A DNA stretch of 64,000 nucleotides from Gammaproteobacteria bacterium (GTDB lineage Bacteria > Pseudomonadota > Gammaproteobacteria > Enterobacterales > Psychrobiaceae), in contig JABSRT010000004.1 in NCBI GenBank assembly GCA_013214945.1, positions 62,001-126,000 of the forward strand, given 5' to 3'. Under the pieces are notes generated by a model that was not told the origin of the DNA, ran no database searches, and saw only the letters and a list, made by a program, of their open reading frames with translations. This document shows positions 4,711-31,308 of this stretch, in pieces. The translations under genes were made by a program, and so were the position numbers. Each line of letters opens with the position of its first letter. Within the stretch, counting starts at the first letter, position 1.

Positions 4711-7308
4711 TTAAGCAGGTTGTTGGATAATCACGTTGTCTGCTTTCTTGGTATACGCTTCCATCTTATCGAAGTTCAAGTAGCGGTACGTATCAGCAGC
4801 AGTGGCATCTAGTTGCGCTGCATAGCTCATGTATTCTTCAACAGTAGGTAGTTTACCCAATATTGATGAAACCGCTGCAACTTCTGCCGAAGATAGGTAA
4901 ACGTTAGCGCCGTTACCTAGACGGTTAGGGAAGTTACGAGTCGAGGTTGAAACAACAGTTACCTTATCACCAACACGGGCTTGGTTACCCATACATAGTG
5001 AACAACCAGGTGCTTCTGTACGAGCGCCGGCTTTGCCGAAGATGCTGTAGTAACCTTCAGCAGTTAACTGAGCTGCATCCATTTTCGTTGGTGGTGTTAC
5101 CCATAAACGTGTTGGCAAGGTGCCGCCGTAGTTTTCAAGTAATTTACCTGCGGCGCGGAAATGGCCGATGTTAGTCATACAAGAACCGATGAACACTTCA
5201 TCAATCTTAGTACCAGCTAGCTTAGAAAGCAGCTCAACATCATCTGGGTCATTTGGACACGCTAGAATAGGCTCTTTAACATCAGCTAAATCGATTTCGA
5301 TAATTTCAGCATATTCTGCATCTTTATCGGCTTCCATTAGTTCTGGGTTAGCAATCCATTCCTGCATCGCAAGTACGCGACGTTCAATAGTACGAACATC
5401 GCCGTAGCCTTCGCTGATCATCCACTTAAGCATAACGATGTTAGACTCTAAGTATTCGATGATTGGTTCTTTGTCTAGTTTAATGGTACAACCAGCAGCA
5501 GAACGTTCAGCAGAAGCATCTGTTAGTTCGAACGCTTGCTCAACTTTAAGTTGGCTCAGGCCTTCAATCTCAAGAATTTTACCAGAGAAAGCATTGATTT
5601 TACCCGCTTTCTCAACGGTCAATAGACCTTTTTCAATCGCGTAGTATGGGATTGCATTAACCAAATCACGTAGGGTAATACCTGGGTTTAGTTCACCTTT
5701 AAAGCGAACTAGGATTGATTCAGGCATATCAAGTGGCATTACACCCGTTGCCGCAGCAAATGCGACTAGACCAGAACCCGCTGGGAACGAAATACCTAAT
5801 GGGAAACGCGTATGTGAATCACCACCAGTACCAACGGTATCAGGTAGTAACATCCGGTTTAGCCACGAGTGAATCACACCATCGTTTGGACGAAGTGAAA
5901 CGCCGCCACGGTTCATGATGAAATCAGGAAGCGTATGGTGAGTGTTTACATCAACTGGCTTAGGGTAAGCCGACGTGTGACAGAAAGACTGCATCGTTAA
6001 GTCAGCTGAGAAACCTAGACAAGCTAAATCTTTAAGCTCATCACGAGTCATTGGACCGGTAGTATCTTGAGAACCAACGGTAGTCATCTTAGGCTCACAA
6101 TATTGACCAGGACGGATGCCGTCAACGCCACATGCTTTACCAACCATTTTCTGACCAAGAGTAAAGCCTTTGTCACTTGCTTCAATATCGACTGGCTTAC
6201 GGAATAAATCAGTTTCACCAAGACCAAGAGAAGTACGAGCGCGAGCGGTTAGGCCACGACCGATGATTAATGGTATACGGCCACCGGCACGAACTTCATC
6301 GAATAATACTTCGGTTTTAAGCGAGAATTTAGTGATGATCTCTTCTGAACCGTGTGCGGTTACTTTACCTTTGTATGGGTAAACGTCGATAACATCGCCC
6401 ATGTTTAGGTTTGATACATCAAATTCTAATGGTAATGCGCCAGAATCTTCCATGGTGTTAAAGAAGATCGGAGCGATTTTAGCACCGATACAGATACCGC
6501 CGCCGCGCTTATTAGGAATATAAGGAATATCATCGCCCATAAACCAAAGCACAGAGTTGGTCGCCGACTTACGAGAAGAACCCGTACCAACAACATCACC
6601 CACGTATGCTAATGGGAAACCTTTGGCTTGTAGTGCTTCAATTTGTTTGATTGGGCCAATTTCACCGTCGTCATCTGGATTAATGCCTTCACGCTCGATT
6701 TTAAGCATCGCTAGTGCGTGCAATGGGATATCTGGACGAGACCAAGCATCTGGTGCTGGAGATAAGTCATCGGTGTTGGTTTCGCCAGTCACTTTAAAAA
6801 CAGTGAGGCTAAGCTTTTCAGCGACAGCAGGTTTAGCAGTAAACCATTCGCCAGCAGCCCAAGATTCCATCACTTGTTGTGCCGCTGCGTTACCCGCCTT
6901 GGCTTTTTCTTCAACGTCATGGAACGCATCAAACATTAATAAGGTATGAGAAAGTGCAGTGGCAGCAATCGAAGCCAACGCGTCATTGTCTAATGCATTG
7001 ATTAATGGGTCGATATTGTAACCGCCCTGCATGGTGCCTAGCAATTGCGTGGCATGCTCAGCTGAGATAAGTGGCGAACTTGCTTCACCAGTCGTTAGCG
7101 CCGCTAAAAAACCCGCTTTAACATAAGCTGCGTCATCAACACCTGGTGGTACACGGTTAGTGATAAGGTCGACGATGAACTCTTCTTCACCTGCTGGTGG
7201 ATTTTTAAGTAGTGCTACTAGTCCATTTACTTGCTCGGCGTTTAGTGGCAAGGGTACGATGCCCTGACTTGCACGTTCTTCAACGTGGCTACGATATGCT
7301 GTTAACAC
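4711..7308 (-). CDS. acnB: Aconitate hydratase B (bifunctional aconitase / 2-methylisocitrate dehydratase)
   Basis: 865 aa, the same length as the E. coli AcnB protein. The three cysteine ligands of the 4Fe-4S cluster are at the expected places: C710 ([13 protein letters not shown]) and C769/C772 ([11 protein letters not shown]). The N-terminal HEAT-like and swivelling domains precede the catalytic core, the AcnB-specific order. It interconverts citrate and isocitrate in the TCA cycle and probably also hydrates 2-methyl-cis-aconitate. The start is GTG at 7308, preceded by AGAGGA; the first residues [12 protein letters not shown] align with known AcnB N-termini. The gene is a single transcription unit with a terminator after it and a 495-nt upstream region containing three inverted repeats. 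Confidence 0.97.
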
Positions 7309-27369: not shown

Positions 27370-27831
27370 ATGACAAAACGATTAAATCACTTCACGATAT
27401 CACCGCAAGCGATGACGATCTTAATTGAACAGGAAAAATACCTAAACCAGCAGTTCACGAGCGAGCATACCGTGACAATGGCAATTTGGGAGTTAGTTAA
27501 ACTGCGAATTTCTCAAATTAACCAATGCGCCTATTGCATCGACATGCATACCAAAGATGCGTTTAAGCTTGGCGAAACATCCGAGCGAATTATCGGCTTA
27601 AGCGCCTGGCGCGATATGCCATTATATTCCCAGCATGAGCAAAGTGCTTTAACATGGAGTGAGTCAGTTACCAGCGGGCAAACAATAAACGATGCAGATT
27701 ATCAAGCGGCGGTTAAAATTTTTGGTGAGCGTGGTTTGTTTGATTTGACGATTGCGGTTAATGCCATCAACAGTTGGAATAGAATTGTCAAAGCCTTTAA
27801 ACCCGAAGTTGGCATTTATCAGCCCAGTTAA
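27370..27831 (+). CDS. Carboxymuconolactone decarboxylase / AhpD-like family protein
   Basis: 153 aa. The AhpD-core redox motif C-x-x-C is in INQCAYCIDMHTKDA, followed by the conserved E and W positions in LSAWRDMPLYSQHEQSALTW. Such proteins are peroxidase-like disulfide enzymes. The start is ATG after AGAGGCAAGATC. An AraC-type regulator gene follows 16 nt downstream, so the two may form one unit. Substrate unknown. Confidence 0.9.
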   Translation: MTKRLNHFTISPQAMTILIEQEKYLNQQFTSEHTVTMAIWELVKLRISQINQCAYCIDMHTKDAFKLGETSERIIGLSAWRDMPLYSQHEQSALTWSESVTSGQTINDADYQAAVKIFGERGLFDLTIAVNAINSWNRIVKAFKPEVGIYQPS

Positions 27832-27847
27832 AGCCGTTATAAATCAC

Positions 27848-28645
27848 GTGGAGTCCAGTATCGATTTTACACTCTTTCAGCCTCAAGCATTATTATCGAC
27901 CCATATCCAGGGGTTGTGGGTTGCATCGACCTCACTAAACCAGCAGCAGTCGCTGACTCGGTGGTTATATGGCGATGCTGGCAGCGGTATTATATTTAAT
28001 TTAACGAGAAACATTGAGTTGGCAGGGGTGACACATTCGCCGGGAGTGATTTTGCAACCCGTGTCGACACAAGCGCAGACCATTAGCCTGGCGCCAGGCT
28101 CACAACTGGTGGGGGTGCGCTTTCATCCGGCGGCAGCTCTGGGAGTATTGACCGTGTTTGCCGAACAGTCGCTGGCTTTAGAGCCGCAAGGTCAGCATTT
28201 GCCAGCGCTTAATGCTTTGTTTAACGATTTAAGCAAGGTCAGCGGTCATTACGCACAAATCGTTATCTTATATCGTTGGTTACATCAGTTGCTCGGTGTA
28301 GCGCAATCGCCTCCTTACTCATTGACCCAAGCACTTGATGACTTACAAAGGCGTCAATCGACGGGGCATTTAACGGGCGACATTGCAAAAATCAGTGGCA
28401 ATATCGGGCTAAGTCAACGGCAACTCGAACGTCAATGTCAAAAATGGCTTGGCATTACCGCCAAACATTATCAAAGGATTATGCGTGTTAATGATACCCG
28501 TAACTCACTTAAACATAATCCTGATATTGATTTGGCAACTCTGGCGTTAGAAAAGGGCTTTACCGATCAGGCTCACATGACGCGAGAATTTAAAAATATT
28601 GCCCAAATCACACCGAAAAAATTTACTCTGTTGCTAAAAGCGTAA
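27848..28645 (+). CDS. AraC family transcriptional regulator
   Basis: 265 aa from GTG at 27848, which avoids an 80-nt overlap with the upstream gene that an in-frame ATG at 27752 would impose; no strong ribosome-binding site supports either. The C-terminal 100 residues hold the two helix-turn-helix units of the AraC DNA-binding domain (SGNIGLSQRQLERQCQKWLG, then LATLALEKGFTDQAHMTREFKNIAQITPKKF). The N-terminal ligand domain resembles those of uncharacterised AraC regulators. It probably controls the adjacent AhpD-like gene. Confidence 0.85.
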   Translation: MESSIDFTLFQPQALLSTHIQGLWVASTSLNQQQSLTRWLYGDAGSGIIFNLTRNIELAGVTHSPGVILQPVSTQAQTISLAPGSQLVGVRFHPAAALGVLTVFAEQSLALEPQGQHLPALNALFNDLSKVSGHYAQIVILYRWLHQLLGVAQSPPYSLTQALDDLQRRQSTGHLTGDIAKISGNIGLSQRQLERQCQKWLGITAKHYQRIMRVNDTRNSLKHNPDIDLATLALEKGFTDQAHMTREFKNIAQITPKKFTLLLKA

Positions 28646-29124: not shown

Positions 29125-30042
29125 TTAAGCTGTGGTATTGGTTGGTCTCGTCGAAAATTGGCGTCGATATTGGCTTGGTGAAATCAACAGTTGTTGGCGG
29201 AAATAATGTCGCATGTTCATCGCATTATTAAAGCCCGTTTGCTCTGATATATGCTCGATAGTGTGGCTAGTACTTTCTAACAAGGATTTGGCCAGTTGCA
29301 ATCGTTGGCTTGTCAGCCATTCTTTGGGACTCATTCCAATACTTGCTCTAAAATGGCGATCAAAACTACGCCGTGACATGGCTGATTTTGTCGCCATTTC
29401 GTCAATACTCATTGGGCGCTGTAAATTTTCAATCGCCCAGTCTAAAGTACTGGCAAACAGCGACTGATGTTCGACCATCGGGGTTTCGACAAATTGCGAT
29501 TGACCGCCATCACGGTGGGCTGGGATCACCAAACGCCGAGCTATCTGGTTGGCAATTTGATGGCTAAAGTCTCGCCTGACCACTTCAAGACAAAAATCGA
29601 GCGCTGCAGCACTGCCTGCTGAGCAGCCAATGCGATCTTGATAAACATAAAGTACATCTTTAACAAATCGGACGTCGGGATAGTTTTGTTTAAACCTGTC
29701 GGCATAACGCCAGTGAGTGGTGGCATCTCGGCCGGCCAACAGGCCACATTGTGCAATGAAAAAAGAGCCGGAGCAAAAAGATAATAGCTTGCCGCCTTGC
29801 TGATGAAAATCGACAACCAATTGCTTTATGTGCTCGGATAATTCGGGATTGATGGGATCCCAGCTTGGAATAACCAAAATATTATAGTCAGCTAAGTTAT
29901 CAATTTTTTTAACGCGCAGTTCAATGCCGCCGGCCGATGAGACGAGCGAGTCAGTAAAGCTGACCACTTCACCTTGATACCAGTTGTCATACTCGGGTCT
30001 GGGCAGGGTAAAAAATTCAGTAGCACACCCTAGCTCAAACAA
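29125..30042 (-). CDS. GlxA family transcriptional regulator (DJ-1/PfpI domain plus AraC HTH)
   Basis: 305 aa from TTG at 30042. The N-terminal two thirds are a DJ-1/PfpI-like domain with KLLSFCSGSFFIAQCGLL as the nucleophile-elbow region; the C-terminus is an AraC HTH pair (TKSAMSRRSFDRHFRASIG, then ISEQTGFNNAMNMRHYFRQ). The frame stays open upstream to about 30112 and reads KVAILSYQNVSLFELGCA, the usual first beta strand of this family, but contains no ATG, GTG or TTG before 30042. An ATG at 30098 is in another frame. Either a rare start is used or a one-base frameshift broke the 5' end. Probably regulates the rhodanese/DUF1272 genes next door. Confidence 0.82.
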   Translation of the reverse strand: MFELGCATEFFTLPRPEYDNWYQGEVVSFTDSLVSSAGGIELRVKKIDNLADYNILVIPSWDPINPELSEHIKQLVVDFHQQGGKLLSFCSGSFFIAQCGLLAGRDATTHWRYADRFKQNYPDVRFVKDVLYVYQDRIGCSAGSAAALDFCLEVVRRDFSHQIANQIARRLVIPAHRDGGQSQFVETPMVEHQSLFASTLDWAIENLQRPMSIDEMATKSAMSRRSFDRHFRASIGMSPKEWLTSQRLQLAKSLLESTSHTIEHISEQTGFNNAMNMRHYFRQQLLISPSQYRRQFSTRPTNTTA

Positions 30043-30201
30043 AGAGACATTTTGATAGCTTAATATCGCGACTTTATTGATAACTTTATACCTGACATGG
30101 AGCTTGGCTTAATCTTAACGTAATGTGTCTTATAAGCCAATTATGAATGGGCGAGTAACTGGCTAAGATAAGTATTCAATCAATAAATGAGATCACCCAA
30201 T

Positions 30202-30630
30202 ATGTCATCAGCCGTCTCTAGGCCCGCTGCAGCAGTTAGTGCAGACGCGTTAGCCCATTTTGAAAACTTACTTAAATATGAAACGGATTGCTGGGATGTT
30301 CACCATGCCATCAGCAATAACCGGCAAGACTTCGTGTTGTTTGATGTCAGAGGTACGGTTATGTATCAACAAGCTCATATCGCTGGAGCGCTTAGCATGC
30401 CAGTGCAAAAAATTACGGCTGAGTCTTTGGTGGGTTTCGCCGACAATAGCTTCTTTGTGGTTTACTGCGCCGGGCCACATTGCAATGCCACCGAAAAAGC
30501 GGCGATTAGATTGGCAAAACTTAATCGGCCGGTCAAAAAAATGATTGGCGGTGTTACTGGCTGGTTAGATGAGGGGTTCTCTTTGGTTCAAGCTGATGTG
30601 TCTTCACTGCAATCCGTTACTGTCGAATAA
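30202..30630 (+). CDS. Rhodanese-like domain protein
   Basis: 142 aa from the ATG at 30202 (an in-frame ATG at 30187 would add five residues; neither has a strong ribosome-binding site). The single rhodanese domain has FVLFDVRGTVMYQQAHIAGA and the active-site loop VVYCAGPHCNATEKAA with the catalytic Cys. It could transfer sulfane sulfur. It is divergent from the GlxA-type regulator and 42 nt upstream of the DUF1272-NIPSNAP gene, a neighbourhood often seen with GlxA regulators. Confidence 0.9.
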   Translation: MSSAVSRPAAAVSADALAHFENLLKYETDCWDVHHAISNNRQDFVLFDVRGTVMYQQAHIAGALSMPVQKITAESLVGFADNSFFVVYCAGPHCNATEKAAIRLAKLNRPVKKMIGGVTGWLDEGFSLVQADVSSLQSVTVE

Positions 30631-30672: not shown

Positions 30673-31308
30673 ATGTTAGTTTTAAGACCAAATTGCGAAT
30701 GCTGTGACAAGGACCTGCCACCGCAATCAACCGAGGCAGTTATTTGTAGTTTCGAGTGTACTTTTTGTGCGCATTGCGCCAGCACTGTGTTAAATGCTAC
30801 TTGTCCAAACTGTGCTGGTAATTTTGTGCCACGACCGATCAGGCCAGCCGCTGCATTAGTAAATAACCCTGCGTCAACCGAGCGGGTATTAAAAGCACAT
30901 CGCAGGGTTGGTAAAGCCGCTGAGCAGAGTATCACTGAAGCTAATATCACAGGCCCGAGTATCACAGAACCGAATATCATAGAAGAGGGTATTGTTGAAC
31001 ATACAGTCGCTTGTTATTTACGTTATGTGATTGATCCAAATAAACTGGTTGAATTCGAACACTATGCAAAATTATGGATCCCGTTAGTGAATCAGTTTGG
31101 CGGAAATCATCTTGGCTATTTCTTGCCATCGGAAGGGGCCAATAATATTGCATTGGCGATATTTAGTTTTCCAAGCCTTGGCGCTTATGAAATTTACCGC
31201 TGCAAGGCGGCTAAAGATAATAGATGTATCGCGGCATTTGAGTACGCCCAAGCAACACGCTGTATTGTCAGCTATGAGCGTAGTTTCTTACGACCCGTTT
31301 TCAGTTAA
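30673..31308 (+). CDS. DUF1272-NIPSNAP fusion protein
   Basis: 211 aa with two separate domains. Residues 1-58 are a cysteine-rich DUF1272 domain (LRPNCECCDKDLPP, then ICSFECTFCAHCA, then CPNCAGNFVPRPIRP), probably zinc-binding. Residues about 107-211 are a NIPSNAP-type dimeric alpha-beta barrel (CYLRYVIDPNKLVEFEHYA, then GGNHLGYFLPSEGANNIALA, then RCIVSYERSF). The two are usually separate genes. The linker (about residues 86-105) is a tandem 10-residue repeat, SITEANITGP and SITEPNIIEE. A good ribosome-binding site (TAAGGAATTGTA) precedes the ATG. Function unknown; the rhodanese gene is just upstream. Confidence 0.85.
   Translation: MLVLRPNCECCDKDLPPQSTEAVICSFECTFCAHCASTVLNATCPNCAGNFVPRPIRPAAALVNNPASTERVLKAHRRVGKAAEQSITEANITGPSITEPNIIEEGIVEHTVACYLRYVIDPNKLVEFEHYAKLWIPLVNQFGGNHLGYFLPSEGANNIALAIFSFPSLGAYEIYRCKAAKDNRCIAAFEYAQATRCIVSYERSFLRPVFS
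30928..30987 (+). repeat. Tandem 30-nt repeat in the DUF1272-NIPSNAP linker
   Basis: Two adjacent 30-nt units, 30928-30957 and 30958-30987, both begin AGTATCAC and encode SITEANITGP and SITEPNIIEE. Shorter ATATCAC/ATATCAT echoes lie inside each unit. The repeat lies exactly between the two domains. Confidence 0.6.

Follow-up and report, generated by a model that had tools for sequence, protein, structure and literature searches.

NIPSNAP proteins (PF07978) and DUF1272 proteins (PF06906) are normally encoded by separate genes. Bacterial NIPSNAP structures have been solved, among them Atu5224 (1vqy) and Atu4242 (1vqs); their titles describe uncharacterized proteins or proteins of unknown function, or give only the family name. 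Across 5.39 million papers searched, we found no described function for DUF1272; a single paper mentions it, and none mentions it alongside NIPSNAP. In that paper, a genome comparison, a DUF1272 gene lies near a zms cluster in Dickeya (PMC9653667); a NIPSNAP protein is tabulated in a transcriptome of Acinetobacter under antibiotic exposure (PMC4201530). The literature on bacterial NIPSNAP and on FtrA likewise gave no function among the matches listed.

In the window, by which we mean the whole stretch of 64,000 nucleotides analysed, the two domains are encoded by a single gene (30673..31308, + strand, 211 aa and stop). The frame is intact, with an ATG start, AAGGA six bases 5' of it, and codon 212 as the sole stop. 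Pfam assigns residues 1–57 to DUF1272 with 93.8 bits (gathering cut-off 25.3, E = 6.6e-27), matching profile positions 1–57 of 57, i.e. the full length, and residues 117–209 to NIPSNAP with 57.9 bits (gathering cut-off 22.3, E = 1.3e-15), matching profile positions 5–98 of 102. An NCBIfam search with the fusion protein gave no matches. The domain calls and the fusion proposed in the earlier note are thereby borne out, as both domains, and not only one of the two, score far above their cut-offs in a single frame. The genome harbors one DUF1272 and one NIPSNAP domain, both within this gene. By alignment the halves reach slightly beyond the Pfam ranges: DUF1272 and the conserved tail at its C-terminus together span residues 1 to about 80 (30673..30912, + strand), followed by a linker (residues ~81–110) and the NIPSNAP domain (residues 111–211; 31003..31305, + strand).

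The linker comprises approximately 30 residues, 25 of which we divide into five pentads (SITEA, NITGP, SITEP, NIIEE, GIVEH) encoded by five 15-bp units (30928..31002, + strand). Tandem Repeats Finder reports an imperfect array at 30930–30984 (period 15, 3.7 copies, 75% matches), the fifth unit being our extension of that array. We infer that the linker was born by tandem duplication. A usual start codon for NIPSNAP alone is absent: codons 53 to 118 contain no in-frame ATG, GTG or TTG, and the sole rarer start listed there is ATT at codon 107. A separate NIPSNAP protein from a usual start is therefore impossible. The lack of such a start, together with the imperfect 15-bp repeats of the linker, gives the gene the appearance of a true fusion, and on its sequence DUF1272-NIPSNAP looks like a genuine one.

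The DUF1272 half retains the entire stand-alone protein, including the tail NPAST.RV.K, as seen in the alignment with stand-alone relatives. Eight cysteines (8, 11, 25, 29, 32, 35, 44 and 47) are invariant, and their spacing C-x2-C-x13-C-x3-C-x2-C-x2-C-x8-C-x2-C is identical in all 42 DUF1272 sequences, including that of the window. All 24 columns with a conservation of 95% or more among the 41 other rows, the window being left out of the definition, are retained. The family divides by tail length into a short-tail subtype (26 sequences, 72–86 aa) and a long-tail subtype (16 rows, 101–102 aa), separated by one well supported branch (98/97) with the window in the short-tail group. RING domains follow the consensus C-x2-C-x(9-39)-C-x(1-3)-[CH]-x(2-3)-C-x2-C-x(4-48)-C-x2-C, where the His position may also hold Cys. 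This consensus fits 42 of 42 DUF1272 sequences and none of 8400 shuffles, the usual His position being occupied by Cys. Modelled alone, DUF1272 reaches a mean pLDDT of 89. Foldseek places mostly RING and U-box structures in its top rows, all weak (best TRIM21 RING, E = 0.03, probability 0.93, TMq 0.41), and VIA-align gives RING rows of Z 3–4 below a best Z of 5.4, weak throughout. At the profile level, marginal matches to solved chains include the TRIM21 RING (E = 0.0034) and Nop10 (E = 0.012). Among 43 DUF1272 members, the Pfam profiles touched include the reverse-gyrase zinc finger (21 members, best E = 0.004), the double zinc ribbon (9, best E = 0.03), zf-RING_4 (8, best E = 0.04, fewer than the reverse-gyrase zinc finger) and, also marginally, the NOB1 zinc ribbon (2, best E = 0.003). 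Given this weak resemblance, we take DUF1272 as a "RING-like two-zinc module" rather than as a member of the RING family.

The NIPSNAP half is similarly well preserved. Of 39 columns with a conservation of 95% or more among the 99 other rows, 38 are retained, defined again without the window; the sole deviating column is Ala 113, where the 99 other rows all have Thr. At the position of T111 in the window, 74 of 100 rows have Met. Neither half looks decayed, because both retain nearly all conserved residues. A sequence search for solved relatives of this half gave none below E = 0.1. The AlphaFold2 model has block-mean pLDDT values of 83–97 over residues 111–210 and superimposes on 1vqy (Z 13.0, 100 residues, rmsd 1.9) and 1vqs (Z 13.0, 103 residues, rmsd 2.3), which places the modelled half in the alpha/beta-barrel subunit fold. 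In the full-length model the DUF1272 part, for which no relatives were aligned, has low confidence, and the packing of the halves is not informed by it. NIPSNAP rows aligned poorly in a joint alignment of both halves, and modelling was done without that alignment.

The fusion is very rare: it is found in one genome. With the whole protein as query, a match over residues 1–211 occurs only in the genome of the window among the matches listed for 394 genomes of the order, 369 of the class and 398 of the phylum, samples that partly overlap; the matches listed for the phylum exclude the weak end, where a full-length match is not expected. Thirteen genomes of the order have both domains, together only in that of the window. 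Among eight other genomes of the genus, one (G041) carries the two domains on a single contig at a distance of 571 kb, two (G061 and G125) carry them on different contigs, one (G096) has NIPSNAP without DUF1272, and four have no match. A scan of 84,980 species genomes, which used exact peptides as candidate patterns so that further cases could escape it, yielded 546 confirmed loci; among the best 80, only those of Grimontia celer and G. marina span residues 1–210, each by way of two genes, and HMMs likewise find DUF1272 at two of these 80 NIPSNAP loci, both Grimontia. Matching plasmid records (183) include none that covers 80% of the query, and the single matching locus in the viral collection matches DUF1272 alone. 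As the fusion is known from one genome only, its usefulness is unsupported by conservation.

Two groups of further candidates were rejected. Long NIPSNAP matches extend upstream as far as residues 64–79 at eight loci of Sinorhizobium/Ensifer and Pseudomonas seleniipraecipitans; translation of three of them (L072, L067 and L069) gave no DUF1272 in the ~100 residues upstream, and we do not count these matches as fusions. A similar long match (residues 73–211) lies within an unannotated stretch of Burkholderia arboris. At 20 other loci with DUF1272 or NIPSNAP (L260–L279), most of which have long frames, HMMs find no frame with both domains, and these too are not the same fusion.

Pfam annotation of 10 of these 20 loci revealed eight single-domain proteins and two other DUF1272 fusions, both with the eight cysteines retained. 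One (L266:1992-2678, + strand, genome G312, 229 aa) combines DUF1272 with a Cass2/GyrI-like effector-binding domain, the other (L260:1059-2282, − strand, genome G582, 408 aa) with an alpha/beta hydrolase. Counting NIPSNAP, DUF1272 is thus seen attached N-terminally to at least three types of domain with small molecules as ligands or substrates.

The closest arrangement elsewhere is a gene pair in G. celer (L066). The DUF1272 gene ends at 6309 and the NIPSNAP gene starts with ATG at 6349, 39 bp apart on the same strand, with GGGAGAG before the ATG. Domain order and strand are as in the fusion, whereas the G. celer domains are encoded by two genes and its DUF1272 belongs to the long-tail subtype. 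The difference in subtype suggests that the pairing arose separately in the two lineages, which we regard as probable, if tentative given the short alignments compared. Neither a rhodanese nor an FtrA-like gene was detected in the 12.6 kb of G. celer sequence that contains the pair. In G. marina (L125, ~585–830) the NIPSNAP frame is broken by in-frame stops beside a whole DUF1272 gene, and the two genes are therefore not inseparable.

We next consider the genomic neighborhood. A single-domain rhodanese-like protein (30187..30630, + strand, Pfam) is encoded directly upstream of the fusion gene and ends 42 bp before it; a GlxA/FtrA-type regulator with DJ-1/PfpI and AraC HTH domains (29125..30042, − strand, Pfam) is divergent from the rhodanese gene. 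The regulator scores below the NCBIfam FtrA cut-off (NF006902, 341 versus 425 bits) and is therefore named FtrA-like or GlxA-type here. A promoter scan listed neither a sigma-70-like nor a terminator-like site in the 42-bp gap; one promoter-like and one terminator-like site lie within the fusion gene (shuffle means 3.1 and 1.6). The rhodanese and fusion genes are probably on the same transcript. Further away (27370–28645), the window contains a CMD/AhpD-like gene whose end is overlapped by the frame of an AraC-type regulator on the same strand with a weak DUF6597 match.

The regulator-rhodanese pair itself is common. Among the best 30 rhodanese loci from order genomes, 27 keep it, own included (loci of ~3.4 kb, built for 30 of the 52 order genomes with a match). 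Within these 30 loci, the pair is followed by DUF1272 in the window and in one other genome (G374), and by NIPSNAP in the window alone; in the class sample, another genome (G535) has regulator, rhodanese and DUF1272 together. In one genome of the window's genus (G125; L289:332-1426, − strand) the pair is followed by neither DUF1272 nor NIPSNAP: a molybdopterin-binding oxidoreductase resembling MsrP occupies the place. The earlier note recognized the regulator and the rhodanese beside the fusion correctly, and its statement that DUF1272 and NIPSNAP genes usually occur near such genes does not hold. In flanks of up to 8 kb around 40 DUF1272 loci, an FtrA-like gene is present at 4 and a rhodanese at 2; in flanks of up to 6 kb around the best 80 NIPSNAP loci of the species-genome scan, FtrA-like, rhodanese and DUF1272 genes are present at 1, 1 and 2, respectively. 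Two DUF1272 loci outside the 40 (L263 and L264, 2 kb flanks) also have an FtrA-like gene. The neighborhoods of both families vary widely. No cluster besides DUF1272 itself occurs at more than 4 of the 40 DUF1272 loci, in a crude gene picking that recovered DUF1272 at 28 of 40 and may let neighbors escape; NIPSNAP neighbors recur mostly within Rhizobiaceae, probably reflecting shared ancestry.

Pairwise associations are nevertheless seen. In order genomes that have both genes, rhodanese adjoins NIPSNAP in 7 of 15 and DUF1272 in 2 of 22, counts that include the window's genome; in G059 rhodanese and DUF1272 lie 3 kb apart. Each of the three pairs that DUF1272, NIPSNAP and rhodanese can form is adjacent in genomes other than that of the window, and the window unites all three. 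If a genome has ~4000 genes, we roughly estimate the chance that a particular pair is adjacent at 5e-4 per genome; against this rough figure, each pair is adjacent in more genomes than random genes would be, the genomes being non-independent. The earlier note held that a fusion implies joint action of the two domains. The Grimontia neighbors and the pairing of each family with rhodanese elsewhere speak in its favor; the joint action itself is a step beyond these observations.

A second rhodanese-NIPSNAP arrangement is found at six loci (L243, L244, L245, L246, L247 and L133), where a LysR-like regulator is divergent from a rhodanese gene that is followed by NIPSNAP. The genomes concerned are G096, of the window's genus, G144, G069, G236, G001 and a Colwellia. 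In four of the six a GNAT-like gene is next; Pfam confirms L245 and the acetyltransferase of L133. As in the window, rhodanese lies directly upstream of NIPSNAP; unlike the window, the regulator is LysR instead of GlxA/FtrA-type, and DUF1272 was not detected. In the NIPSNAP tree, all six belong with the window's NIPSNAP to a group of 12 with weak support (83/68). The arrangement is seen across several families and has possibly moved horizontally.

Taken as a whole, we read the gene as a lineage-specific in-frame fusion that places a zinc-bound, RING-like head on a NIPSNAP dimer with rhodanese as its partner, a reading that we hold tentatively and at slightly less than an even chance. The NIPSNAP half would dimerize as alpha/beta-barrels in the usual manner and have a pocket for small molecules, and each subunit would carry a DUF1272 head on the flexible linker, its eight cysteines holding two zinc ions. 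Such a head may serve as a docking or thiol-bearing module, and the fusion would fix DUF1272 and NIPSNAP at 1:1. The likely partner would be the presumably co-expressed rhodanese encoded just upstream, whereby DUF1272, NIPSNAP and rhodanese would form a small cassette, handling sulfur compounds or electrophiles under the divergent GlxA/FtrA-type regulator.

The same gene could have arisen by a chance, near-neutral fusion, in which a stop was lost between genes brought together and each domain keeps an unrelated job. The occurrence in one genome only, among the matches listed, would fit such an origin, as would the separate location of DUF1272 and NIPSNAP in most genomes and a long repeat linker that would permit independent folding. 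Against it, the same pair is adjacent in G. celer with the other DUF1272 subtype, an adjacency expected by chance at only the rough estimate given above, and the conserved residues of both domains show no decay; we consider a chance fusion somewhat unlikely. An error of sequencing or assembly that joined two adjacent genes is very unlikely. A single genome and a tandem repeat at the junction, where assemblers can slip, are what such an error might leave behind, but one missing base hardly removes both a stop and a start, and codons 53–118 are devoid of the usual starts. Moreover, the linker repeat keeps the reading frame from end to end and, being imperfect, does not resemble an assembly duplication. 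Nothing in the sequence points to an artefact.

A different function would follow if DUF1272 were a zinc-dependent nucleic-acid binder and NIPSNAP a ligand sensor, the fusion then being a one-component regulator. This idea is consistent with the weak profile matches between DUF1272 and families of zinc fingers and zinc ribbons (reverse gyrase, NOB1, double zinc ribbon); the best VIA-align row (Z 5.4) comes from a zinc protein in the ribosomal subunit of an archaeon, and a Cass2/GyrI-like effector-binding domain is the partner in one of the other DUF1272 fusions. The zinc-family scores are marginal, however, Pfam reports no DNA-binding domain in the fusion, listing two families in all up to E = 1, and a dedicated regulator already adjoins the locus; we consider a one-component regulator quite improbable. 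To return to the zinc-bound head with a rhodanese partner, a broader form of that reading would make DUF1272 an all-cysteine, RING-like adaptor that docks varied small-molecule domains, namely NIPSNAP here, Cass2/GyrI-like in L266 and an alpha/beta hydrolase in L260, to a sulfurtransferase or another partner, as part of an undescribed persulfide- or electrophile-detoxifying cassette. We consider this generalization speculative and unlikely.

The joining of two normally separate domains hints at joint work; otherwise it is an ordinary gene fusion. Together with the adjacent pair and the rhodanese neighbors, it provides a first testable list of partners for DUF1272 and NIPSNAP, and the protein is a compact construct for structure work. 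Compared with the stand-alone families, residues 1–80 are up to 75% identical to a DUF1272 protein of genome G134 (14 compared) and 78% identical to one encoded on a Pseudoalteromonas plasmid, and the eight cysteines are spaced as in the stand-alone proteins. Unlike the fusion, the 41 stand-alone DUF1272 proteins collected end after 72–102 aa, with starts set at the domain boundary. Residues 111–211 have the fold of stand-alone NIPSNAP proteins, including the solved Atu5224 and Atu4242, in common and are up to 76% identical to NIPSNAP proteins of Rhizobium (among the best 80 of 546 loci); the stand-alone proteins are about 100 aa long and mostly have Met at the place of T111, whereas the fusion has no usual start there. 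The fusion joins known families in a new architecture, and its value lies chiefly in the handle that it offers on DUF1272.
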